Origin: a virus
DNA: 25,772 nucleotides
Virus record (IMG/VR): IMGVR_UViG_3300028790_000097
Coordinates: 1-25,772 of that record
Strand: one strand, 5' to 3'
A program made the position numbers and the translations under genes. Of the stretch, positions 7,683 to 18,199 are shown piece after piece. Every line of letters starts with the position of its first letter. Position 1 is the first letter of the stretch. The notes under the pieces are model-generated. The model ran no database searches and was not told where the DNA came from. It worked only from the letters and a program-made list of their open reading frames with translations.

Positions 7683-8693
7683 CTACCGTTTGGTCAACTC
7701 GCCTCGCAGCCAATCGTTCATGGAGGGCACCCCGTTGCGTCCCCGCCCGATACCGGCGACCAGCTCGGGTTCTCCGTCGTCTTCGGCGCGCTGGGCCCGG
7801 CGCTGCGCGTTGTCGCGCTTGCGCTGGGGCCCCCCGCGCAGCTTGCGCGCCTCGTCGGCGCGCCACACCTGCTCGAGCCGGCGCAGGGCGGCGCGCACCA
7901 GCTGCAGCCGCCCGTCGAGGCCCTCCGGCAGGTCGGCCAGGAGGGGGGCGCGGTCGGCCTCCGGCAGGGCACTCATGATCGGGTCAATCGATACCCGGTC
8001 GTAGTGCTCGACCAGCCCCCGGACGAAGCCCTCCTGCTGCTGCAGGGCGTCGACCTGCTCCTCCAGCTCGGCCGCCTTGTAGACGTCCGTCTGGCGCAGC
8101 TCCCGCGCCTGCTGCTTGAGCCCCTCCACCCGCTGCTGGCGCGTGAACCGGCCCTGCTCGTCGCGCTGCTTGTTGGCCCGCGCCACGCGCCGGTCGATCT
8201 CGCTCTGGATGGCCCGCGAGAACGGGCCGTCCGCCTGGGCCAGCTCCTGCAGCTCGTCCCCGGAGAGGGACGCCAGCTGCTGGCTGATCGCCCCGGCCCG
8301 CTCGCTCAGGGGTTGAGCGGGGGGCGCGTCGGGGCGTGGGGGGGAGGGCTCCCGGCCGTCTGCGTCGGGGCGCGAAGCGGGCTCACTCCGCGGGCCCTCC
8401 GGCGCGCCGGCCGCCCCGTCGCTGCGAACCCCCTGCCGACCGAAGAGGCGGTGCAGGAAGTCCGACGCCGGTGACGCGCGCTCCGCGGGGCCCTCGGCAC
8501 CGCTCTCGGCCCGCCCGTCGGCGGGGGGAGGGGGAGGGTTCGGGGAGCCACCCGCAGAGCGGCCGTCCTGAGGGCGGCTCGGCGGCCGCCACCCGGTGTC
8601 GGGGGTGCGCGAACGCGCCGGTTCCGGCGGCGCTTGGCCCGCTTGGGGCGCTGGGGCTGCCGGTGCGGCCGCGTCCTGACCCGTCTCGCTCAC
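7683..8693 (-). CDS. capsid scaffold-like protein
   Basis: I chose the GTG at 8693 (VSETGQ..., 336 residues). GGGAG lies 12 bases upstream, and a more upstream TTG at 8747 would put the start inside a promoter-like repeat. The first 130 residues are Pro/Ala/Arg-rich and look disordered. The rest is strongly helical: QLASLSGDELQELAQA, EIDRRVARANKQRDEQGRFT and a coiled coil LKQQARELRQTDVYKAAELE, followed by a Lys/Arg-rich segment. The C-terminus ends NDWLRGELTKR; basic C-terminal ends are used by scaffolds to bind capsid subunits. Position immediately before the major capsid gene supports a scaffold role. Sequence identity in this class is low, so the assignment rests mainly on context and architecture. 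Confidence 0.75.
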   Translation of the reverse strand: MSETGQDAAAPAAPAPQAGQAPPEPARSRTPDTGWRPPSRPQDGRSAGGSPNPPPPPADGRAESGAEGPAERASPASDFLHRLFGRQGVRSDGAAGAPEGPRSEPASRPDADGREPSPPRPDAPPAQPLSERAGAISQQLASLSGDELQELAQADGPFSRAIQSEIDRRVARANKQRDEQGRFTRQQRVEGLKQQARELRQTDVYKAAELEEQVDALQQQEGFVRGLVEHYDRVSIDPIMSALPEADRAPLLADLPEGLDGRLQLVRAALRRLEQVWRADEARKLRGGPQRKRDNAQRRAQRAEDDGEPELVAGIGRGRNGVPSMNDWLRGELTKR

Positions 8694-8718
8694 GGTTGCG
8701 GTGGGCTCCCTGCGGGCG

Positions 8719-8752
8719 ATGGTAGGCCCTGTCAAGCAAGTAGTCAAGCAAT
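8719..8752 (-). promoter_or_regulatory. promoter-like site with tandem TTGCTTGAC repeat upstream of scaffold/capsid genes
   Basis: On the minus strand TTGCTTGAC occurs at 8751-8743 and again at 8739-8731. The first copy supplies a -35-like TTGACT (8747-8742), which is 17 bases from a -10-like TACCAT (8724-8719). The predicted transcript would begin about 20 bases before the scaffold GTG at 8693. A near-identical motif stands in front of the terminase copy at 21083-21117, which suggests a phage-specific promoter or operator. Confidence 0.6.
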
Positions 8753-8785
8753 GCGACTGAGCGTGTAAAGAACGGGGACCACCGG

Positions 8786-8829
8786 AACGCCCCCGGCGGG
8801 AGGTCGCCGGGGGCGTTTAGGCCAAACGC
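8786..8829 (-). terminator. strong hairpin with overlapping alternative hairpin (terminator or attenuator-like)
   Basis: A perfect 13-base-pair stem AACGCCCCCGGCG (8786-8798) pairs with CGCCGGGGGCGTT (8805-8817) around a six-base loop. A second stem, GCGTTT (8813-8818) with AAACGC (8824-8829), shares bases 8813-8817 with it, so the two are mutually exclusive. It lies between the 590-residue protein and the scaffold promoter, a sensible place to end or attenuate transcription from the portal side. No clear U run follows, so this may be a pause or processing site instead. Confidence 0.6.
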
Positions 8830-8847
8830 GGGGGGCTGCGGCGGGCG

Positions 8848-10620
8848 CTAGCTCTGGGGGATATCCCAGTCCTGGTAACGACCATTGGACCAGACGGTGC
8901 GGGCCCGGCCCGGCTGCCCGGACGGCCCCAGGTCTTGCGCCGCGATCTCCGGCACCTCGCTCTGGGGCGCCGCGGACAAGGGCCCGGAGTAGCGCACCTG
9001 GTTCATCAGGCTCGTCAGGTCCGGCCCGGTGGGCAGCGCCGGCAGGGGGACGTTGACGTCGCGCGCCGTGGCGGGGCTGACCCGGGCCAGCAGGCGGTTC
9101 ACGGCGGCGTCGGCCAGCTCGTTGACGTTGGGCACCACCTTGCGGAAGTTGGCCGGGTCGAACGCCCCCGCGCTGAACTGGAACGGCGCCGCGGCGTTGG
9201 GGCCGCCCATGGGCCCGGCCGCCATGCGGTTGGCCAGCCCGCCGAGGTCGCTGATGTACTCGGTGGCCCGGGTGCCCTGGCCCAGGGTGATGGCCTCCTG
9301 GCGGCCCGCCTCGCCCGCCGCGTGCGCCAGCTGCTCCCGCTGCCGGTTGAGGGTGTCGACCCGCCCCTGCTCGGCGGTGGTGCGGGTGAGGTTCTCCTGC
9401 TCGAGCTTCCGGCGCTCCTCCTCGGCGGCGGCCTTGTAGCCGGCGAGGGGGCCCTCCACGTTGAGCTGCATCCAGCGGTCGAACTGGGCCTCGGCCTGGT
9501 CGGGGCTGATCTGCCCGGACTTCTGGAGGTCGGTGAGCCGCTTCAGCTCCGTGCGGGCCAGGTCCTGCCGGCGGGACGCCTCCGCCTGGTACTGGGCCCC
9601 GGCGCCCCCGAACTTGGGCTGGTTGGCCAGCTCGGCCGCCTCCACGGTGGCCTTCTGCAGGCGGTCGGCCAGGGCCCGCCCCTCGGGGGTCTGGGTGTCG
9701 AGGTTGAAGATCTGCTGCCCGGTGCGCTTGTCGTAGCCCACCAGGCGGCCGTCGGTCGTCTGGAGGGTCTGGGGCAGGCTCTCGAAGAGCTTCTGCCCTT
9801 TGGTGCCGTCCGGCTTCTGGAGGTAGACGCTGCCGTCCGGGTCGGTGACGGTCTTGGCCGCGGCGGCCGGGCCGTTGATGGCCGTGATCTGCTTGGTGTA
9901 GGGGTCGAAGGCCCAGTAGGCGCCCTGCCCGTCGGTGATGACGCTGCTCGAGGTGCCCGGCCCGGAGGGCTGCCCGAGGATGCCCGTGTCCGGCTTGGCG
10001 CTGCCGGGGACGTAGCTCCACTGGCCGTTGTTGTAGGTCTCGGTGATGACCGCCGTGTAGTCCCGCCCCTGGGCGTCCTTCCAGGTGGTGCGGGTGGTGC
10101 GGCTGTCCCCGTTCTTGGCCTTGTCCTTCTCGGCCGCCTTGGCCTTCTCGTCGTCCCGGATGCGGTTCTCCTCGGCCGCGATCTGGGCGGTGACGGTGGT
10201 CAGGAGGGTGCGCAGGGCGGGGAGGGCCTTGCTGGCGTTGACGCCCGCCTCGGAGTTGGGGTCGGCGGAGATGGCCGCCTCGGCGGCGGCGATGGCGTTC
10301 TCCACGTCCCCGCGCTGCTTGTTGAAGTGCTCGAGCGTGGACGGGGGCGTCGCCGGCGCGCCCGGCGCGGCCGCCGCCGCCGCGGGCGCCGCGTCGGGCG
10401 CGGCCGGGGGGCGACCCAGCTCGGTCGTGCTGCCGCCGCTCCCGCTCGGCGCAGCGGGCGGCGCGGGCGGGGGCACGTAGCCGGGGGCGCCGGGGGGCGT
10501 CGACCCGGGGAGGATCGCCTCGCCCCCCCGGTTGAGGGCGCCGGCGCCGGCGGCGCTCGTGCGGTTGAGCCAGTCCGCCGCCGCCCGGCTCAGGCTGCCG
10601 ATCTCGTCCCACCAGGCCAT
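8848..10620 (-). CDS. putative internal virion protein with coiled coils (590 aa)
   Basis: The ATG at 10620 directly follows the upstream TAG. Layout: a short N-terminal helix (MAWWDEIGSLSRAAADWLNR), a Pro/Ala linker (40-95), a coiled coil (about 95-170) rich in Lys/Glu/Ala, a beta region with repeated short units (GQGAYWAFDPYTKQITAING at 231-250; DGRLVGYDKRTGQQIFNLD at 290-308), a long helical region (about 340-445), and a C-terminal flexible part ending WSNGRYQDWDIPQS. The short D-G-x-x-x-x-x-D-x-x-T-x-x-x-I units resemble ones in the 675-residue gene product further upstream in the same operon. No enzyme motif is seen. Placement among lysozyme and ejection-type genes suggests an internal or ejected protein. 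The name is inference. Confidence 0.65.
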   Translation of the reverse strand: MAWWDEIGSLSRAAADWLNRTSAAGAGALNRGGEAILPGSTPPGAPGYVPPPAPPAAPSGSGGSTTELGRPPAAPDAAPAAAAAAPGAPATPPSTLEHFNKQRGDVENAIAAAEAAISADPNSEAGVNASKALPALRTLLTTVTAQIAAEENRIRDDEKAKAAEKDKAKNGDSRTTRTTWKDAQGRDYTAVITETYNNGQWSYVPGSAKPDTGILGQPSGPGTSSSVITDGQGAYWAFDPYTKQITAINGPAAAAKTVTDPDGSVYLQKPDGTKGQKLFESLPQTLQTTDGRLVGYDKRTGQQIFNLDTQTPEGRALADRLQKATVEAAELANQPKFGGAGAQYQAEASRRQDLARTELKRLTDLQKSGQISPDQAEAQFDRWMQLNVEGPLAGYKAAAEEERRKLEQENLTRTTAEQGRVDTLNRQREQLAHAAGEAGRQEAITLGQGTRATEYISDLGGLANRMAAGPMGGPNAAAPFQFSAGAFDPANFRKVVPNVNELADAAVNRLLARVSPATARDVNVPLPALPTGPDLTSLMNQVRYSGPLSAAPQSEVPEIAAQDLGPSGQPGRARTVWSNGRYQDWDIPQS

Positions 10621-12423
10621 CTACCCTGTCCTTCCCAGCTGCAGCAGGTCGCGCACCCAGGCCGGCATGGGCCCGGCGTCGCCCGCGGGGGCGCCCGCGC
10701 CCGGGGCCACCGTACCACCCCGGCCGGCGGCGATATCGACGAAGTGCCCCGGACGGTCGAACTTCTCGGCGTCCAGGTGCGGGCCGGTGGTGTTCCCCGA
10801 CACGCCCACCTGCTGCAGCCGCTGCCCTTGCTCCACCCGCTGTCCGGGGCGGGTGGCGATGGAGCCCGGCTGGGCGTGGGAGAGCCGGTAGTAGTAGCCG
10901 TTGTCGCCCCGCAGGAGGGTCATCCCGCCCCAGCCGTGGTTGGCGTTGCGGTCGCGCTCGTCGGGCGCGTCGAAGACCTCCACGACGGTGCCCGAGACGG
11001 GGGCCACCACCGGCGCGCCGTAGGGCGCGGTCAGGTCGGCGCCCACGTTGCTCGAGGGCAGGGCCACCGTGGCGCCGGCGCTGCGCGCCTGGGTGCCCCC
11101 GAACGGGTTGTTCACCGCCCCCCACTTCTGGCCCGCGACGGGCCACACCTCGTCGGTCTGGGTCGCCCCGCCCGCCTCCGGTCCACCGGCGCCGCGGCCG
11201 GCCGCCAGCAGGTCGCGCACCCAGGGGGGCGCGTCGCCGGGCGCCGCGGGGGCGGCGGACGTGAGGCGGCCCCGTTCGGGCGCGTCCGGGGCCACGGGGG
11301 CGGCGCCGGTCAGGGTCGACCGCAAGTAGGACACGGCGTCGAAGTTGCGGCCCAGGCCCCCCTGCGCCCCGGCGCCGGTCTGGATGCCCTCGCCGATCCC
11401 GATGTGCAGGTGCGCGGGCGTCCCCGCCGCGTTGCCCGTGCGCCCCACGTCGCCGAGCTGCTGCCCGGCGCCCACCCGCTGGCCGGTCTTCACCTGGGGG
11501 GCATTCTTGAAGTGGGCGTAGTAGTACGTCCGACCGTCGTCCCCCAGCACGCCGACGTTGTTGCCCCCGAGGGCGTCGTCCGTGCTCGCCCACTGCACCA
11601 CCCCGGGCACCATCGCCACCACCGGCGTGCCCTCGGGCGCGAACAGGTCGCTCCCGCCCACCCCGGCCTCGGCCCCGTGGTGCAGCTCGACCTTGCCCGT
11701 GTAGCCCGCCACCGGGAACACCGCGCGGGGCGCCGCCCCCGCCTCCGCCCCCCCGCGGCGTCCGCCGCTCGCGGGGACGGGGGCCTCGGACGGTGCGCCG
11801 CCGGAGAGCAGATCGCGCACCCACGGCGGGGCGTCGCTCGGGGCGTCCGCGGCCGGGCGGGCGGCGGGGGTGGGCGCGGAGCTGGCCCCCGAGGTGCCGA
11901 ACAGGTCGCGCACCCACGGGGGCGCATCGGGCGGCGCGGCGCCGCCGGGGGCGCCGGCGTCGACCGGTGCCGAGCCGATGCCCTGGCGCCCGGTGACGCC
12001 GACGGTGCGGGCCCCGTACCAGGCGCCCCAGCCGTTCTTCGCCGCCGCGTCGAGCGCGTAGTCGGTGGCGGCGCGCCACGCGGCGGGGTCGCCCGGCTGG
12101 TAGCCGGTCTGCGCCGTGAAGGCGTTGCCCATCCCGGCGGTGGTGCCGAACTGCTCGTACCCCGGCCCGCCGTAGTGGAGCTGGTACGGCCAAAAGGACT
12201 TGCCCGTGGCGAACGACCCGGTGCGGTTGGGCACCAGCCCGCCCTCGCTCTGGGCCACCTTGATGGCCACCTCGGGGTCGATCCCCCGCTTGCTCGCCGC
12301 CGCCCGGATGTAGCCTTCTACGTCGTCGCCGCCGGTGTCGCCGCCCCGCTGCTCGGGCGCGCGGTAGCTCGTCGCGCTCGAGCCCAGCAGATCGGCCACC
12401 CACGGCGGTGTGGCCGCCATCAC
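10621..12423 (-). CDS. virion peptidoglycan hydrolase: lysozyme-like domain plus two M23-like domains
   Basis: The start is a GTG at 12423 or the adjacent ATG at 12420; GGGAG lies upstream of both. Residues about 35-150 are a lysozyme/transglycosylase-like domain: YIRAAASKRGIDPEVAIKVA, then the probable catalytic Glu60 in QSEGG, SFWPYQLHYGGPG, TGYQPGD, and GWGAWYGA. Residues 235-345 form an M23-like domain with DLFAPEGTPVVA, YYYAHF (His304) and HLH (338-340). Residues 430-560 form a second M23-like domain with DLTAPYGAPVVAP, but HLD (549-551) stands where HxH is expected. Both M23 copies lack the usual first zinc His (Val255 and Asn459 are in its place). Five PPWVRDLL-type motifs separate the modules. 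Such proteins ride in the virion and open a hole in the wall for DNA entry. The lytic role is known for the families; its placement in the virion is inferred from the operon. Confidence 0.87.
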   Translation of the reverse strand: MMAATPPWVADLLGSSATSYRAPEQRGGDTGGDDVEGYIRAAASKRGIDPEVAIKVAQSEGGLVPNRTGSFATGKSFWPYQLHYGGPGYEQFGTTAGMGNAFTAQTGYQPGDPAAWRAATDYALDAAAKNGWGAWYGARTVGVTGRQGIGSAPVDAGAPGGAAPPDAPPWVRDLFGTSGASSAPTPAARPAADAPSDAPPWVRDLLSGGAPSEAPVPASGGRRGGAEAGAAPRAVFPVAGYTGKVELHHGAEAGVGGSDLFAPEGTPVVAMVPGVVQWASTDDALGGNNVGVLGDDGRTYYYAHFKNAPQVKTGQRVGAGQQLGDVGRTGNAAGTPAHLHIGIGEGIQTGAGAQGGLGRNFDAVSYLRSTLTGAAPVAPDAPERGRLTSAAPAAPGDAPPWVRDLLAAGRGAGGPEAGGATQTDEVWPVAGQKWGAVNNPFGGTQARSAGATVALPSSNVGADLTAPYGAPVVAPVSGTVVEVFDAPDERDRNANHGWGGMTLLRGDNGYYYRLSHAQPGSIATRPGQRVEQGQRLQQVGVSGNTTGPHLDAEKFDRPGHFVDIAAGRGGTVAPGAGAPAGDAGPMPAWVRDLLQLGRTG

Positions 12424-12465: not shown

Positions 12466-12771
12466 ATGACCACCGCTCGCGTCCCCCGCCCCCGCCCCGA
12501 GGCGTACACCGCCCCGGTGAGCCCGCTCCTCCCGGGCGCACCCGGGCGCCTCGAGACCGCCGTCGCCCTGCTGTACCTGCCCGTCGGCGTCTTCGCCGTG
12601 TTCGGGGGGGCCATCTCGTTCCTCGTGCTGACCGCGGTGGGGATCGACGTGATGGGCGGCGCCGGGTGGTGGGAGCCCGCCCCCTTCGTCATGTGGTTCG
12701 GGGGCACGCTGGGGTTCTCCTGGGGCGTTGGCCGGCTCGAGCGGTGGCTGCGCCGCGTCATCCGAGGCTGA
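12466..12771 (+). CDS. small two-helix membrane protein (holin-like or exclusion-type), unknown
   Basis: The product has 101 residues, encoded opposite to every neighbour. It fills the 334-base gap between two minus-strand genes, and its stop overlaps the 3' end of the 1130-residue protein gene by 14 bases. The N-terminus is Arg/Pro-rich (ARVPRPRPEAY). Two hydrophobic segments follow: about 31-60 (a long LLYLPVGVFAVFGGAISFLV stretch) and about 73-88 (FVMWFGGTLGFSWGVG). The end is basic (RLERWLRRVIRG). A GGGAG with five-base spacing supports the start. Small phage membrane proteins of this type include holins, antiholins and superinfection-exclusion proteins. The separate orientation and own promoter-like box resemble a moron gene. 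There is no family match I can name, so the function is open. Confidence 0.7.
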   Translation: MTTARVPRPRPEAYTAPVSPLLPGAPGRLETAVALLYLPVGVFAVFGGAISFLVLTAVGIDVMGGAGWWEPAPFVMWFGGTLGFSWGVGRLERWLRRVIRG

Positions 12772-15700
12772 CCCCGTACTTCTTCTCGATGGCCTTGCGC
12801 TGACGGGCGAGCGCATCGGCATCGCGCCGCGTCTTGTTGACCAGGGCGAAGGCGTCCGGCTCCTCCTCGCGCAGCTTGGCCCGCCAGCCCCCCTCACCGT
12901 ACTTCTTCTTGTACTCCGTCTCGAGCGACTGGGCCCGGGAGATGGCCGCGTTCTGGGTGCGCACCTCGTCCGGGGTGCCCTGCACCCCCACGTACTTGGG
13001 GACGGCGTCCCACTCCCGCTGGGCCTGCTGCTTGGTGCCCCGGGTCACGCCCTCGCCCAACACCACGTCGGCCCGGTCGGCGGCGGTGCGCAGCGCGTCC
13101 TGCAGCGCGCTCTTCTTGCCCGCGTCGTCGAGCTTGGCGTACCCCGGCTTGGCCATCGCCTCCCGCACGGTTTTGCCGGTCTCGCTCCCCAGGGCGCGCT
13201 GCGCGGCCCGGCGCTGTTCGGGGGTCGGCTTCGCCCCCTCGTACGCCTCGGTGCGCCCCAGCACGCGGGGTTGGAGGCCGAGGCGGGCCAGCTCGAGGCC
13301 CTCGTCGGTCTGCACGTCACCCCGCTCGCCCCAGTACCGGGAGAGGCCGGTCCCTTCCCGGCGCTGGTCCTCCCCCGTCACCGGGTCGATGCGGGTGGGC
13401 ACCAGCGCCCGCAGCCCGGTGCGGCTCGCCACCTGCTCGGGGAACGTCTCCGCCTGGCGCTCGTAGGGGTCGGCGGCGCCGATGATGGTGGTGAGGGGCC
13501 CGGTGAAGCGCGAGGGCTGGCCGGCCAGGAGCGACCGGGTGGCCCCCGCCGCGCCCTGGGGGCCGTTGACGGCGTCGACGAAGTCGACCATGTCAGACAG
13601 GTAGCTGGCCTTCAGCCCCCACCGCCAGGCCGCGTTGTAGCCGTTCTCGAGCACCGCGCCGGGGTCGCCCCCCTCCGCCTGCGCCTTGCGCGCGGCGTCC
13701 AGCGTGGTGGCGATGGCGCTGGCCTGCATCCCCAAGGAGCCCAGGTAGCGGCTGGGGATGCGCTGCCCGGTCGGCGTCGCGACCGTGTTCCACTGCTCGC
13801 CCTGGGCCTCCCGGCGCCGGCGCTCGTTGGGGTCGGCCGGCGGGTCGCCGGTGACGCCGCCGTTGAAGTAGGCGATGGTCAGGGCCGTGGTCGCCGCCAT
13901 CCCGGCCGCGGCCCGCCCGGCGAACTCCCGCGCCGCGGCCGTGTCGCCCCGCTTGAGCGCGCGCACGAGGCCGACCCCCGCCTCCGCCGGCACCAAGGAG
14001 CCGATGGTGGCCCGCAGCAGCCGTTCGGGCATCAGCACGTAGGGGGCCATGCTGGTCACGGCCGCGGCGACGCCCTTATCCAGCAGGCTGGCGTTCGGGT
14101 CGCGGATGGCCCCCTTCAGCTCGGTCAGCTTCTTGGCCACCGCCGAGTTGGGCCCGCCCCAGGTGGCGAAGTCGCCGGCGGACTGGGTCATCCGGGCCGT
14201 GTCGGCGGCCCCCAGCCGGTGGCGGGCGGCCCGGGCGCCGGCGCCGGCCTCGTTGACCGTGCGCCAGAACTCGTCCAGGGCGGCGTTGGCGCGGGTGCCG
14301 GCGGTGAGGACGGTGGGGGCCAGCCCGCCCCGGGAGAGCAGGTCGCCGCTGGTCTGGGCGCCGGTCATCCCGGGGTTGAACTGGGTGGGGCCGGCGCCGA
14401 ACGCCTCGCGCACCTTGCGGCCCGCCCCGGGGAGGGAGCGCACCATCCCGCCGAGGTCGACGAGGGCGTCGATGGGGCGCCCCTCGAACGCCACGCCCGC
14501 AACGCGCTCCACCGTCCGGGCCATCCCGGAGGTGAAGTTGGCGAGCTGCGACGTCGGCGCCGCCAGCGGGATCGCCCCCATCAGCTCGGGGATGTCCCCG
14601 AGGGTGATCCGGCCCCGTCCCGGCGGCGCCCCCCGGCCCGCGGCCCCGGCGGCGGCCCCCAGCACGTCGTCCGCCAAGGTGCCGGAGGCGACCCGCCCCA
14701 GCTGGCGCAGGTTGGCCCCGCCCAGGGCGCCCGCGGCCGACCCCAGGGCGAAGCGCCCGGCCCGCTCCTGCCACGTGGCGTCCTCGTCCGCCGTCGCGGC
14801 GGCGGCCACGCCCCCGGCCGTGCCCGCCGCCAGGTCGAAGGCCCGCTCCCCGGTCGTCTGCGCCCCCCGGGCCAGGAAGGGGTCGGTGGCGCGCGTGGCC
14901 GCCCCGAGGAGGCCGTCGCCGGCAGCGGCGCCCTCGGGCACGACCCCGGCGGGCAGCACGTCCTCCAGCCCCTTGGCGGCGAGGTACTCCCGCGCCGCCC
15001 GCTCGCCCTCCGCGCCCTTGCCCACGGCCAGCAGGCGCAGGTCGTCGGCCGCGGCCTCGCCGTCGGCCCCGCGGCGCCAGAGCCGCTGGATGGCGTCGAA
15101 CACCCGCTGCTCGGCCTCGCCGTCCACGGCGCGCTGCGCCTGCTGCTCCGGCGTGAGCCGGGGCATGCGGAAGCGTTGCCCGCTGCGGATGCCCAGCCCG
15201 CCGGCCTCGTCCGCTTCCGCCGCCGCCGCCTGCCCGAAGCGGTACGGGACGCGCCCCAGGACGTCGCCCACGCCGCTCAGCACCTGGGGGGCGGCCGTGG
15301 CCAGCTCCCCCACGCCCGCGCCCATGTTGGCGCCCTCGAAGCCCCGGGTGACCACCCCCGCCGGTGGGGCGCCGGCCGCGATCCCGGTGCCGATCCCGAG
15401 GGCCGCGCCGGCGGGGGCGAGGGCGGCGGGAGCGGCGCGCAGCCAGCTGGGGGCGTTCGCCGCCAACCCGCCCTCGATGGAGCCGATGGTGCCCCCCGGC
15501 CCCACCGTCGACATGACGCCCTGCGCCGCGGCCTGCGTCTCCGGGAGCCCGCCGGCCGCCCCGGCCAGCTCGCTCGCCACCTCCCCCGGCGCCGTGAAGG
15601 GGGTCGTGCCCACCTGGAAGGCGCCCGCGGCCTGGGCCGGCAGGTCGGCCCCCTGCGGGCCGAACCCGGTCATCGCCTGGACGGCCTGCCCGGTCTTGTT

Positions 15701-16150
15701 CTGTACCCGCCCGAGGCCCTGCCACGCCTCACCCCCGGCGCCGGCCAGCACGCCCAGGGGCATGGGCAGGTCGGGGCGCTCGGCGGCGTAGCGGTCGGCG
15801 GTGGCGTTCAAGTTCGCCGCCTGCCGGTCGGAGAAGTCCTGCAGCCCGGCGGCGCTGGGGATGGCCCCGGCCACGTCGCTGCCGATCTGCCCGATGCGCG
15901 CCAGGGCCCCCTGCGCCCAGTCCCCCACCCCCTCGAGCGGGGAGGGGGCCGGCAGGGGCGGCGGGGCGGGCGGCGGCGGTGGAGGCGGGAGGTCCGGCAC
16001 CAACCCGTCGAGGGCGGAGGTGGCCCGGCCGATCCAGTCCCCCGCGGTGGCCCCGGCCGCGGCGATGCGCTGCCGGGCGACCTGCTCGGCCCGGCGGCGC
16101 TGGAAGTCGAGCCAGCTCCCGGCGTCTACGGGCGGTAACGCGCCGTCCAT
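12758..16150 (-). CDS. large internal/ejection-type virion protein (1130 aa)
   Basis: The product is a giant Ala/Gly-rich protein from the ATG at 16150. The N-terminus is a charged helix (WLDFQRRRAEQVARQRIAAA) followed by a poly-proline stretch (about 54-70). Several Ala/Gly-rich, weakly hydrophobic helices follow. A conserved-looking helical block at about 585-880 contains TPFARTP-like counterparts (MAPYVLMPERLLRATIGSL near 700), LVRALKRGDTAAAREFAGRA, an AYFNGGVTGDPP turn and GQRIPSRYLGSLGMQASAIA. This arrangement resembles the C-terminal domains of large polyvalent/internal virion proteins of short-tailed phages (LPD-type). The C-terminal 200 residues are Lys/Arg/Glu-rich helices. Such proteins travel with the genome and form or line the channel through the envelope. 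The assignment rests on pattern resemblance and operon context. Confidence 0.7.
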   Translation of the reverse strand: MDGALPPVDAGSWLDFQRRRAEQVARQRIAAAGATAGDWIGRATSALDGLVPDLPPPPPPPAPPPLPAPSPLEGVGDWAQGALARIGQIGSDVAGAIPSAAGLQDFSDRQAANLNATADRYAAERPDLPMPLGVLAGAGGEAWQGLGRVQNKTGQAVQAMTGFGPQGADLPAQAAGAFQVGTTPFTAPGEVASELAGAAGGLPETQAAAQGVMSTVGPGGTIGSIEGGLAANAPSWLRAAPAALAPAGAALGIGTGIAAGAPPAGVVTRGFEGANMGAGVGELATAAPQVLSGVGDVLGRVPYRFGQAAAAEADEAGGLGIRSGQRFRMPRLTPEQQAQRAVDGEAEQRVFDAIQRLWRRGADGEAAADDLRLLAVGKGAEGERAAREYLAAKGLEDVLPAGVVPEGAAAGDGLLGAATRATDPFLARGAQTTGERAFDLAAGTAGGVAAAATADEDATWQERAGRFALGSAAGALGGANLRQLGRVASGTLADDVLGAAAGAAGRGAPPGRGRITLGDIPELMGAIPLAAPTSQLANFTSGMARTVERVAGVAFEGRPIDALVDLGGMVRSLPGAGRKVREAFGAGPTQFNPGMTGAQTSGDLLSRGGLAPTVLTAGTRANAALDEFWRTVNEAGAGARAARHRLGAADTARMTQSAGDFATWGGPNSAVAKKLTELKGAIRDPNASLLDKGVAAAVTSMAPYVLMPERLLRATIGSLVPAEAGVGLVRALKRGDTAAAREFAGRAAAGMAATTALTIAYFNGGVTGDPPADPNERRRREAQGEQWNTVATPTGQRIPSRYLGSLGMQASAIATTLDAARKAQAEGGDPGAVLENGYNAAWRWGLKASYLSDMVDFVDAVNGPQGAAGATRSLLAGQPSRFTGPLTTIIGAADPYERQAETFPEQVASRTGLRALVPTRIDPVTGEDQRREGTGLSRYWGERGDVQTDEGLELARLGLQPRVLGRTEAYEGAKPTPEQRRAAQRALGSETGKTVREAMAKPGYAKLDDAGKKSALQDALRTAADRADVVLGEGVTRGTKQQAQREWDAVPKYVGVQGTPDEVRTQNAAISRAQSLETEYKKKYGEGGWRAKLREEEPDAFALVNKTRRDADALARQRKAIEKKYGVSLG

Positions 16151-16171: not shown

Positions 16172-18199
16172 TTACCGCTGGAAGAAGTTGTAGGACGCGC
16201 TCGAGGCCCCGGCCGCGCGGGGAGCGGCGCCCTTCATCAGGTTCTCGACGTCGTTGGCGTCCCAGCCCTGGTCCTCGTACTGGCCGAGGATCATCTCCCG
16301 CTGGGAGGGCTGCATCCGGGCCCAGTTGGAGAGGTCGGCCTGGCGCGGGTTGCCCAGCGTCTGCTGCGCGGCGGGGTCCTGCCCGTAGGTGCCGGAGAGG
16401 ATGTCCCCGGCCAACCCGGCGGCGCTGGCCCGGCCGCCCTGCGCCTGCCCCTGGGCCCCCTGCCCGGTCGGCAGCTGGTAGCGCCCCTGGTAGGCCGCCA
16501 GCACGTCCTGCAGCCCCTGGGGGGTGGCCCCGAAGGTGGACTGGTAGCGCGCGTAGTCGCGGGGCCCCTTCATGCTGGCCTGGAGGCTGAGCAGGTACTG
16601 CGCCTGGGCGTTCTCCTGGGCGATGGCCTGCTGCGTCTTCTGGCCGTTGTACATCCCCGTCAGCCCCGCCTCGCTGACCCCTTGGGCAAACCGCTGCTGC
16701 TGCATCGACTGCGTGTCCGCCCCGCCGAACTGCCCGGTGAGGCCCGCCGTCTGGTACGCCTTGCTCCAGGCGTCGCGGGCCTCTTCCAACGCGATGCGGG
16801 TGTCCCCCTGGCGCAGAAGGGCCTGCTGGTACGCCCAGTAGGCGGCCCGGTCGGCGGCGTCCGCCGCGTTCTTGTTGGCGATGGCGTCCTCGGTGCTGCT
16901 GCCCGTCCCCGGCGCCCCGCCCGGCTGGACGTTCCGCCCGCCCAGGGCGGCCCCGCCGATCTGCTGCTGGGTGAGCCCCGTCTTCTCCTGGATCATCTGC
17001 CACGCCTGCGGGTCCTGGACGAAGATGCGCCCGGCGCGGATCTCGTCGAGCAGCCCCTGCCACATGGCCGGCGGCGCCGACCAGGCGGGGGTGCCGATGC
17101 CGGTGGGCGTGTCCGAGCGCAGGAAGAGGGTGGCGAGGTAGTCCTTGCCCGCCGTCTCCGGGGTCTGCCCCCAGTTGGACGTCACCGTCGACCCGAAGAA
17201 GCCGCCGCCCATCCCGCCCCCACCGCCGCCCGTCGGCGCGTAGGCGTAGGGGGGCGCCGCCGCGGCCAGGGCCGGGTCGAAGCCCCCGCCGCCCCCGCCC
17301 AGCCCGTGCTCCCGGCGCCACCGCGCGTCGCCCTGCAGGGCCTGCGTGCCGTCGGTGGCCTTCCCGGTGATCCACCGCTGCGGGGTCTGCACCTCGGCGC
17401 CCGTGGTCGGGTCGCCCGTGCCCCCCAGCCCGTACCGGCTGTTGACGACCTCGTTCCCGATCTTCTGGAACAGCCCCTGCGGCGCGCCGGGGAACCGGGG
17501 CGTCTGGTCCTGGGTGTTCAGAGCGAACTGGTTGTAGGTGCCGCTCCCCGGGATGTAGCCCGGGGCCAGCTTGGGGTCGAAGAGGTAGGGGAGGTCGGCC
17601 TCGTTGATCTTGATGGGGGCCTGGTTGAAGCCGGGCACGCCCCAGCCGTAGGGCTGGCCCTCCGTGCCGGCGCCGATGGTGCCCCAGCCGGCGCCGCGCC
17701 CCTGGGTGGGGTCGGCCGCGTTCCAGGTCGACGGGGCCACCGTCGAGCCGAACGGGACGTCCGTCGGCCGCCCCGGGACGGTCTGCCCGGGCATGGCGCC
17801 GGGGTAGCGCCCCGTCCCGGGGCGGGTGGGGCCGTAGTTGAAGTCCTCGCCCGGGCGCCCAGTGCCCACCGGGCCGGTCGGCGCGCGGGGGTTCACCGGC
17901 GCACCGGGCGCCGCCGGGCCCGCGGCCGGGGGCGCGCCCTGGAGCTGGGGCGGCGGGTTGGCGATGTCGAAGGCGGTGAGGCTGCCGTCGGGGTTGATGA
18001 CGGCGGCGCGCCCGCCCCCCAGGTCGGCGGGGTCGGGGCGCCCGGGGTTGATGTAGGCGACCTCCTGCTCCGTGTTCGCGTCCCAGACGACGTAGCTGCC
18101 GTCGCTGTAGCGCGTGCCGATGAGCCAGCGCCCCTGGGCGTCGCGCCCCAGGTCGAGCGCGTCGTAGTCCGTGACGGGGGTGGCGCCGGGTGCGGGCAT
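16172..18199 (-). CDS. putative internal virion protein (675 aa)
   Basis: The ATG at 18199 begins three bases after the preceding stop. The N-terminal 80 residues are short strand-turn units (GRWLIGTRYSDGSYVVWD, GRAAVINPDGSLTAFDIA) like those in the 590-residue protein of the same operon. The middle is Gly/Pro-rich and contains WRREHGL (294-300) and Gly runs (301-306, 324-333). The C-terminal 320 residues are helical and Gln/Ala-rich, with two copies of an AGLTG-[QM]-[FY]-x-G motif (485-493 and 511-519) of a kind seen in large phage structural proteins. It ends SYNFFQR. No enzyme signature is visible. Placement between the portal and the 1130-residue protein suggests a core or ejection protein, inferred only. 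Confidence 0.62.
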   Translation of the reverse strand: MPAPGATPVTDYDALDLGRDAQGRWLIGTRYSDGSYVVWDANTEQEVAYINPGRPDPADLGGGRAAVINPDGSLTAFDIANPPPQLQGAPPAAGPAAPGAPVNPRAPTGPVGTGRPGEDFNYGPTRPGTGRYPGAMPGQTVPGRPTDVPFGSTVAPSTWNAADPTQGRGAGWGTIGAGTEGQPYGWGVPGFNQAPIKINEADLPYLFDPKLAPGYIPGSGTYNQFALNTQDQTPRFPGAPQGLFQKIGNEVVNSRYGLGGTGDPTTGAEVQTPQRWITGKATDGTQALQGDARWRREHGLGGGGGGFDPALAAAAPPYAYAPTGGGGGGMGGGFFGSTVTSNWGQTPETAGKDYLATLFLRSDTPTGIGTPAWSAPPAMWQGLLDEIRAGRIFVQDPQAWQMIQEKTGLTQQQIGGAALGGRNVQPGGAPGTGSSTEDAIANKNAADAADRAAYWAYQQALLRQGDTRIALEEARDAWSKAYQTAGLTGQFGGADTQSMQQQRFAQGVSEAGLTGMYNGQKTQQAIAQENAQAQYLLSLQASMKGPRDYARYQSTFGATPQGLQDVLAAYQGRYQLPTGQGAQGQAQGGRASAAGLAGDILSGTYGQDPAAQQTLGNPRQADLSNWARMQPSQREMILGQYEDQGWDANDVENLMKGAAPRAAGASSASYNFFQR

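Follow-up and report, generated by a model that had tools for sequence, protein, structure and literature searches.

The window analysed here is the whole stretch of 25,772 nucleotides that makes up positions 1–25,772 of the IMG/VR virus record IMGVR_UViG_3300028790_000097, from an uncultured phage. An open frame on its minus strand starts with GTG, has ATG as its second codon and encodes a virion lysin-like protein, hereafter the lysin. Hydrolase domains are recognisable in this virion-module gene, which is syntenic with the portal, scaffold-like and capsid genes. The scaffold-like protein, which owes its name to an earlier note on this DNA, and g8848 matched no family in Pfam or PHROG. A terminase-like gene (PF17289, 21800–23308) lies on the plus strand, opposite to the virion genes; its homologue in the related contig L067 is located upstream of the portal gene and on the same strand.

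Table 1. Features of the window that are discussed in the text, with nucleotide positions and strand.
Feature	Positions	Strand	Residues or length	Remarks
Virion lysin-like protein, five tag copies	10621..12423	-	600 aa	
Tag copy 1, PPWVADLL	12385..12408	-	residues 6-13	N-terminal
SLT/lysozyme-like domain	11971..12324	-	~residues 34-151	relatives in phage tape-measure/internal proteins
Tag copy 2, PPWVRDLF	11899..11922	-	residues 168-175	linker
Tag copy 3, PPWVRDLL	11806..11829	-	residues 199-206	linker
First M23 domain	11395..11655	-	residues 257-343	PF01551
Tag copy 4, PPWVRDLL	11206..11229	-	residues 399-406	linker
Second M23 domain	10744..11061	-	~residues 455-560	PF01551
Tag copy 5, PAWVRDLL	10642..10665	-	residues 587-594	6 residues before C-terminus
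g8848, coiled-coil + beta protein	8848..10620	-		candidate tag partner; next gene downstream of lysin
g12758, internal-virion-protein-like (phrog_6651)	12758..16150	-		upstream of lysin
g16172	16172..18199	-		second-best tracker of tag type
Scaffold-like protein	7683..8747	-		C-terminus NDWLRGELTKR

The earlier note had reported a PPWVRDLL motif repeated five times in the lysin. All five copies were borne out, starting at residues 6, 168, 199, 399 and 587, and the Pro/Ala-rich context that it described for them is correct. Five 8-mers that share six of eight letters exceed every one of 200 residue shuffles of the protein, in which the largest 8-mer family had one copy in 67 cases, two in 127 and three in 6. 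An AlphaFold2 model of low confidence, built on seven sequences (mean pLDDT 48.1, linkers below 50), predicts short helices at all five tags (residues 7–14, 169–172, 200–206, 400–407 and 588–595), each standing alone in its linker. The same model also contains two beta-rich M23 domains and disordered linkers.

Pfam recognised two M23 (PF01551) stretches in the lysin and gave no match for the N-terminal SLT-like domain; the N-terminal third of the protein resembles SLT-like domains of tape-measure and internal proteins in PHROGs and phage records. The M23 zinc motif is described as Hx3D and HxH (PMC9662197), and this canonical site is incomplete in both domains of the window. The first zinc histidine is replaced by V255 in the first domain (V255-x3-D259 with H338-x-H340), while in the second (N459-x3-D463 with H549-x-D551) it is also replaced and H-x-D stands instead of H-x-H. 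Judged from these residues, the M23 domains of the window may be degenerate and non-catalytic, and the SLT-like domain could be active. The second type of M23 domain also occurs without canonical zinc residues in L002, L003, L004, L043 and L065; the M23 domain of L005 has them. The lysin profile had its best PDB match, through M23, in the cyanophage A4 pre-ejectosome, namely the internal protein (9k2v, E 2.3e-11). A single-sequence search found 9k2v at E 2.3e-7, below four other M23 sequences of which EnpA (6smk) was first. The match to 9k2v fits a location of the lysin inside the head, which is proposed from the position of its gene, but does not prove it.

We searched IMG/VR with the lysin, the capsid, g8848, the portal and g12758. 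The lysin gene was found at the same locus in nine uncultured viruses, including the window. Eight copies are full length (window, L002, L003, L004, L005, L043, L065 and L067) and that of L064 is partial, comprising the C-terminal part. The gene lies between g12758 and g8848 in all eight full-length cases, and the better covered contigs have the genes arranged as portal, g18203, g16172, g12758, lysin, g8848, scaffold-like, capsid. The last two IMG/VR viral scans gave no new contigs, and no relative was found in bacterial genomes. Among records of cultured phages the lysin was matched by single domains only (seven records, below 60% identity), all capsid matches were likewise below 60% identity, and the portal and g12758 had no match.

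Tags accompany the lysin throughout this set. The C-terminal tag was found in nine of nine proteins (one of them partial), linker tags in all eight full-length proteins and the N-terminal tag in seven of those eight, L065 having no in-frame N-terminal copy. In 8/8 full-length proteins, 0 to 6 residues separate the last copy from the C-terminus. Beside the five of the window, the tags are PDWVKDLL, PDWVRDLM, PDWVRDLQ and PDWVRDLM in L002; PPWVDELL, PTWVRELL, PAWAAELL and PAWVRELM in L003; EPWAQDLL, EPWAQDLL, EPWAEDLL and GAWVDDLL in L043; PAWYRDLT, PAWYRELL and PQWYRDVL in L065; PDWLRGYL, PAWYRAYT and PEWFRAYA in L004; PDWWNAIG, PAWYAAIP and PAWWSAV in L005; and PEWWSAVS, PAWWTALA and PAWWSAVT in L067. 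The C-terminal tag of the partial L064 protein is SAWARDAL. The 29 copies in the eight full-length proteins, the window counted, have the common pattern P-x-W-Φ-x-x-Φ. Column 4 is V, Y, W, A, L or F and column 7 is L, V, Y or I in all of them, and one of the first two positions is P in 28 of the 29. As the copies were chosen by eye and by Trp-centred scans, the conservation of W is by construction. The remaining letters are lineage-specific (WVRDLL, WAQDLL, WYRDL, WYRAY, WWSAV).

The domains between the tags are exchanged while the tags stay. The first M23 domain is an extra domain of the window lysin, missing in the other seven full-length orthologues, and the window lysin has one more tag than its nearest relatives. 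L067 carries PF01464 SLT and PF00877 NlpC/P60 domains between its tags in place of M23, L005 a different M23 domain and L004 a different, weakly matching SLT-like domain. The SLT-like domain was also present in 45 other fetched loci (26 + 19), for the most part, among the loci that were read, as a portion of tape-measure or large internal proteins, and no P-x-W-Φ family was reported in these 45. Since the tags are kept across domain swaps and none was reported from the other SLT-like loci, they belong to the locus and not to the domain. Loss of the motif with the catalytic domains kept, which the earlier note had named as counter-evidence to its docking proposal, was not seen; the reverse was. 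A docking role, as that note proposed, is supported at the level of sequence by copies that are kept as domains swap, while the exact PPWVRDLL gives way to P-x-W-Φ-x-x-Φ as the only universal form.

Copies of the tag resemble each other far more within a protein than between proteins. Outside P and W, identity was 0.64 within and 0.28 between proteins, a difference that 0 of 10,000 label permutations reached, although such a permutation ignores the dependence among related copies. First and last copies of one protein are 52% alike, whereas first copies across proteins are 24% and last copies 30% alike, and an exact permutation of the pairing of N- and C-terminal copies gave 4/5040. Two copies of one protein that agree in a residue also agree in its codon 104 times out of 185, and the codon usage of the gene predicts 103.4. 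This sharing at chance level indicates that the copies are kept alike as protein and not by recent DNA copying, and recent gene conversion, considered as a source of the homogeneity, is not supported by it. Two observations point the other way: the flanks of the tags are 0.21 alike, against 0.09 expected from composition, which partly reflects richness in Pro, Ala and Gly, and the first two copies of L043 are identical beyond the tag (EPWAQDLLAAVG).

We compared the pairwise similarity of the virion proteins, six genes in all, with the similarity of the tags. The comparison covers seven full-length orthologues; L003 was dropped as its contig is without scaffold and capsid. g8848 followed tag type best, with a rho of 0.81 (6/5040 permutations, seven genomes) in a first run and of 0.67–0.77 (11 to 22 of 5040) over four tag measures in a second run with column filtering. 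In both runs g8848 alone was trimmed to its start; the second applied column filtering to the other genes. Values for g16172 were 0.63 (six genomes, 20–21 of 720) and for the portal 0.42 (five genomes, 24/120). On the main measure the capsid (0.11–0.12), the scaffold (0.19–0.21) and g12758 (0.12–0.16) did not track tag type. Individual pairs of genomes behave accordingly: L004 and L065 have capsids 95% and scaffolds 78% identical and differ in their tags, the capsid of L005 is 79% identical to that of the window and its tag differs, and L004 and L067 have close g12758 proteins (56%) and no common tag. Among the capsids compared, those of L004 and L065 also diverge most. Within g8848, residues 90–170 and 170–310 track best (0.75 each) and the first 90 poorly (0.37), in few genomes. 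Linked inheritance could contribute to the g8848 correlation because this gene adjoins the lysin downstream; g12758, the upstream neighbour, is without tracking signal despite its adjacency. The best computational candidate for a partner is g8848, and not the capsid or the scaffold.

The predicted model of g8848 (pLDDT 63.6) combines an extended helical part with a beta part and a helix at the N-terminus. A fold search with it gave 0 PDB matches at E ≤ 0.001, and at E ≤ 0.1 the PDB held no relative of g8848, g12758 or the portal. We also scanned other virion proteins for the tag, and in all eight genomes the best scores did not exceed the maximum of 20 shuffle rounds, a result that is weaker for g8848 of L003 and L005 (open reading frame extended upstream or in the wrong frame) and for g18203 of L067, where the scan fell on the portal frame. 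Borderline cases were PAWWNAPT in g16172 of L005 (score 34, shuffle maximum 35) and PDWARSAS (28) and PDWAKEEA (27) in g12758 of L002 (shuffle maximum 30). The scaffold C-terminus NDWLRGEL, in which the earlier note saw a loose likeness to the tag and a possible common partner, is really there. A role of scaffold or capsid as that partner was dropped, since tag type follows neither of them and the scaffolds of L004 and L065, whose lysins keep their tags, end without the Trp (DALIRR). A C-terminus of the form N[DAS]WLR is kept in the scaffold-like proteins of six contigs.

We give about an even chance to the explanation that the repeated P-x-W-Φ-x-x-Φ elements are helical docking tags, which tether a modular peptidoglycan-degrading protein to a neighbouring internal protein, for example g8848. 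We infer that the tags would act as short helical docking elements within disordered linkers, that inside the head they would bind a partner, an internal ejection-type protein such as g8848 being the most likely one, and that the lysin so tethered would be packaged and delivered along with the ejection apparatus. Avidity may come from the presence of several copies in a chain, for instance if a ring-shaped or coiled-coil oligomer offers the same site several times. As a single pocket would have to accept every copy, the copies would evolve in concert within one virus and diverge from one virus to another, and the enzyme domains between them would be freely exchangeable. The stronger version, in which the short Trp tag, repeated around every domain, forms a private docking code of this phage group that is read by one internal g8848-like protein of the ejection apparatus, so that any peptidoglycan-degrading domain can be slotted in as injectable cargo, is less likely than not; tag and reader would then coevolve, giving each lineage its own tag.

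The strongest rival is self-association, in which the tags would be short amphipathic helices that bind one another, in the same lysin chain or from chain to chain, since this would also make the copies uniform. Their mutual compatibility would explain both the homogeneity within a protein and the drift between lineages, as well as the finding of the tag in the lysin alone. Self-association does not, however, predict that tag type tracks g8848, and the low-confidence model has five isolated helices and no bundle. We regard it as rather unlikely, and it is the g8848 signal that makes us favour a separate partner. A second rival is binding to the membrane or envelope after ejection, where Trp-rich amphipathic helices would anchor the lysin at the membrane or wall surface. 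Trp is typical at membrane interfaces and the W-Φ-x-x-Φ pattern fits an interfacial helix, but such binding would not give all copies in one protein the same letters (WVRDLL in one, WWSAV in another), and the tag has only about eight residues, so that we consider this reading quite improbable.

Two further readings were weighed. The repeats may have spread by recombination or may serve as stiff spacers, with no partner, to which the identity past the tag in L043 and the likeness of the flanks would lend some support, the latter in part by composition. Codon sharing at the level expected from codon usage stands against this by-product of the linkers, as do the copies kept at the very ends of the chain, where a spacer would serve no purpose, and this reading appears improbable. 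That the tags are sites at which a maturation protease cuts and frees the domains would suit copies that flank each domain, and a site that differs by lineage could reflect a protease that does so too. Cuts at the copies of the extreme ends would release nothing, though, and a scan of part of the open reading frames of the window recognised no maturation protease; processing is the least credible of these readings and very unlikely.

Docking to a partner such as g8848 would have parallels in known systems. The capsid targeting sequence of phage T4 brings internal proteins into the head; it is a single N-terminal copy that is cleaved, whereas the lysin tags occur in multiple copies that include the C-terminus. 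Encapsulation peptides of bacterial microcompartment cargo are described as short amphipathic helices, joined to the enzyme by a flexible linker, that target cargo into the shell (PMC11157265, PMC12339742). They are given there as 15–20 residues long and located at the N- or C-terminus, while the lysin tag has about 8 residues, is centred on Trp and occurs in 3–5 copies, also between domains. The tag is likened to these peptides by function only and is not a member of their class; any binding of the tag to a shell would be hypothetical, and the tag pattern is present in 29/29 sequences that were selected as copies, with helices predicted at low confidence. CsoS2 of alpha-carboxysomes is reported as a disordered protein whose helical repeats, four of them in the N-terminal domain, bind Rubisco weakly and multivalently (PMC11365436). 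CsoS2 is a scaffold, whereas here the tagged chain is the enzyme cargo, and the likeness lies in the way of working, with no homology claimed.

Among phage systems, the ejection proteins and DNA ejectosomes of T7, PhiM1 and cyanophage A4 are described as internal proteins between whose components peptidoglycan-degrading domains swap (PMC8954989, PMC11440229), and mosaic exchange of such domains among ejection proteins is known (PMC8954989). The internal protein of A4 (9k2v) has an M23 domain similar to that of the lysin. Descriptions of podophage ejection proteins drawn from these two papers mention no linker tags in repeated form; in the present case the enzymes reside on a distinct protein that bears the tags. 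Phage polyvalent proteins are presented as multidomain, probably packaged proteins with lysozyme-type domains (PMC5512222), and the term 'linear motif' is missing from the main text of that paper. We found no description of repeated linker tags in virion lysins in the open papers searched.

Other repeated motifs were observed in related phages, in all cases on the plus strand. A protein of 1532 amino acids in L140 (9192–13787) with weak GH19 and C39 matches has seven G[ML]SRADEW copies, mostly in a Pro-rich linker, a repeated tag unrelated in sequence to that of the lysin. A neighbouring L140 protein (7830–9188) contains four LTGxYxG copies, and g16172 of the window contains LTGQFGG and LTGMYNG. 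Large proteins adjoining a related portal in L091 (10853–18628) and L095 (13712–19315) have three PT[SP]S[DE][SA]LTNP copies each, kept between both contigs. Proteins of L052 (9896–12373) and L054 (5364–7706) start with an SLT-like domain that is followed by two [TS]HDNFL[DN] copies in a Gln/Pro/Ala-rich linker. A shorter protein of L044 with a C39-like domain (9380–11047) has four QI[AS]QLQ copies before its SLT-like domain. Three [MPT]DW[IL]G elements surround enzyme-like domains in a large protein beside a related portal in L089 (13646–21196), and these are possibly a distant cousin of the lysin tag.

Little is known of how short-tailed phages choose the enzymes that they package and deliver in order. 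Tags that outlast the exchange of the enzymes provide a concrete hypothesis of cargo loading with a named candidate partner, g8848, and may offer a means of bringing proteins of choice into phage heads. They also suggest a route to finding partners, by looking for motifs in linkers that are uniform in one protein and lineage-specific between viruses and then for the neighbour that tracks them. Should the private code hold, phages with SRADEW, SDSLTNP or HDNFLDD linker tags may use the same principle with unrelated tags.
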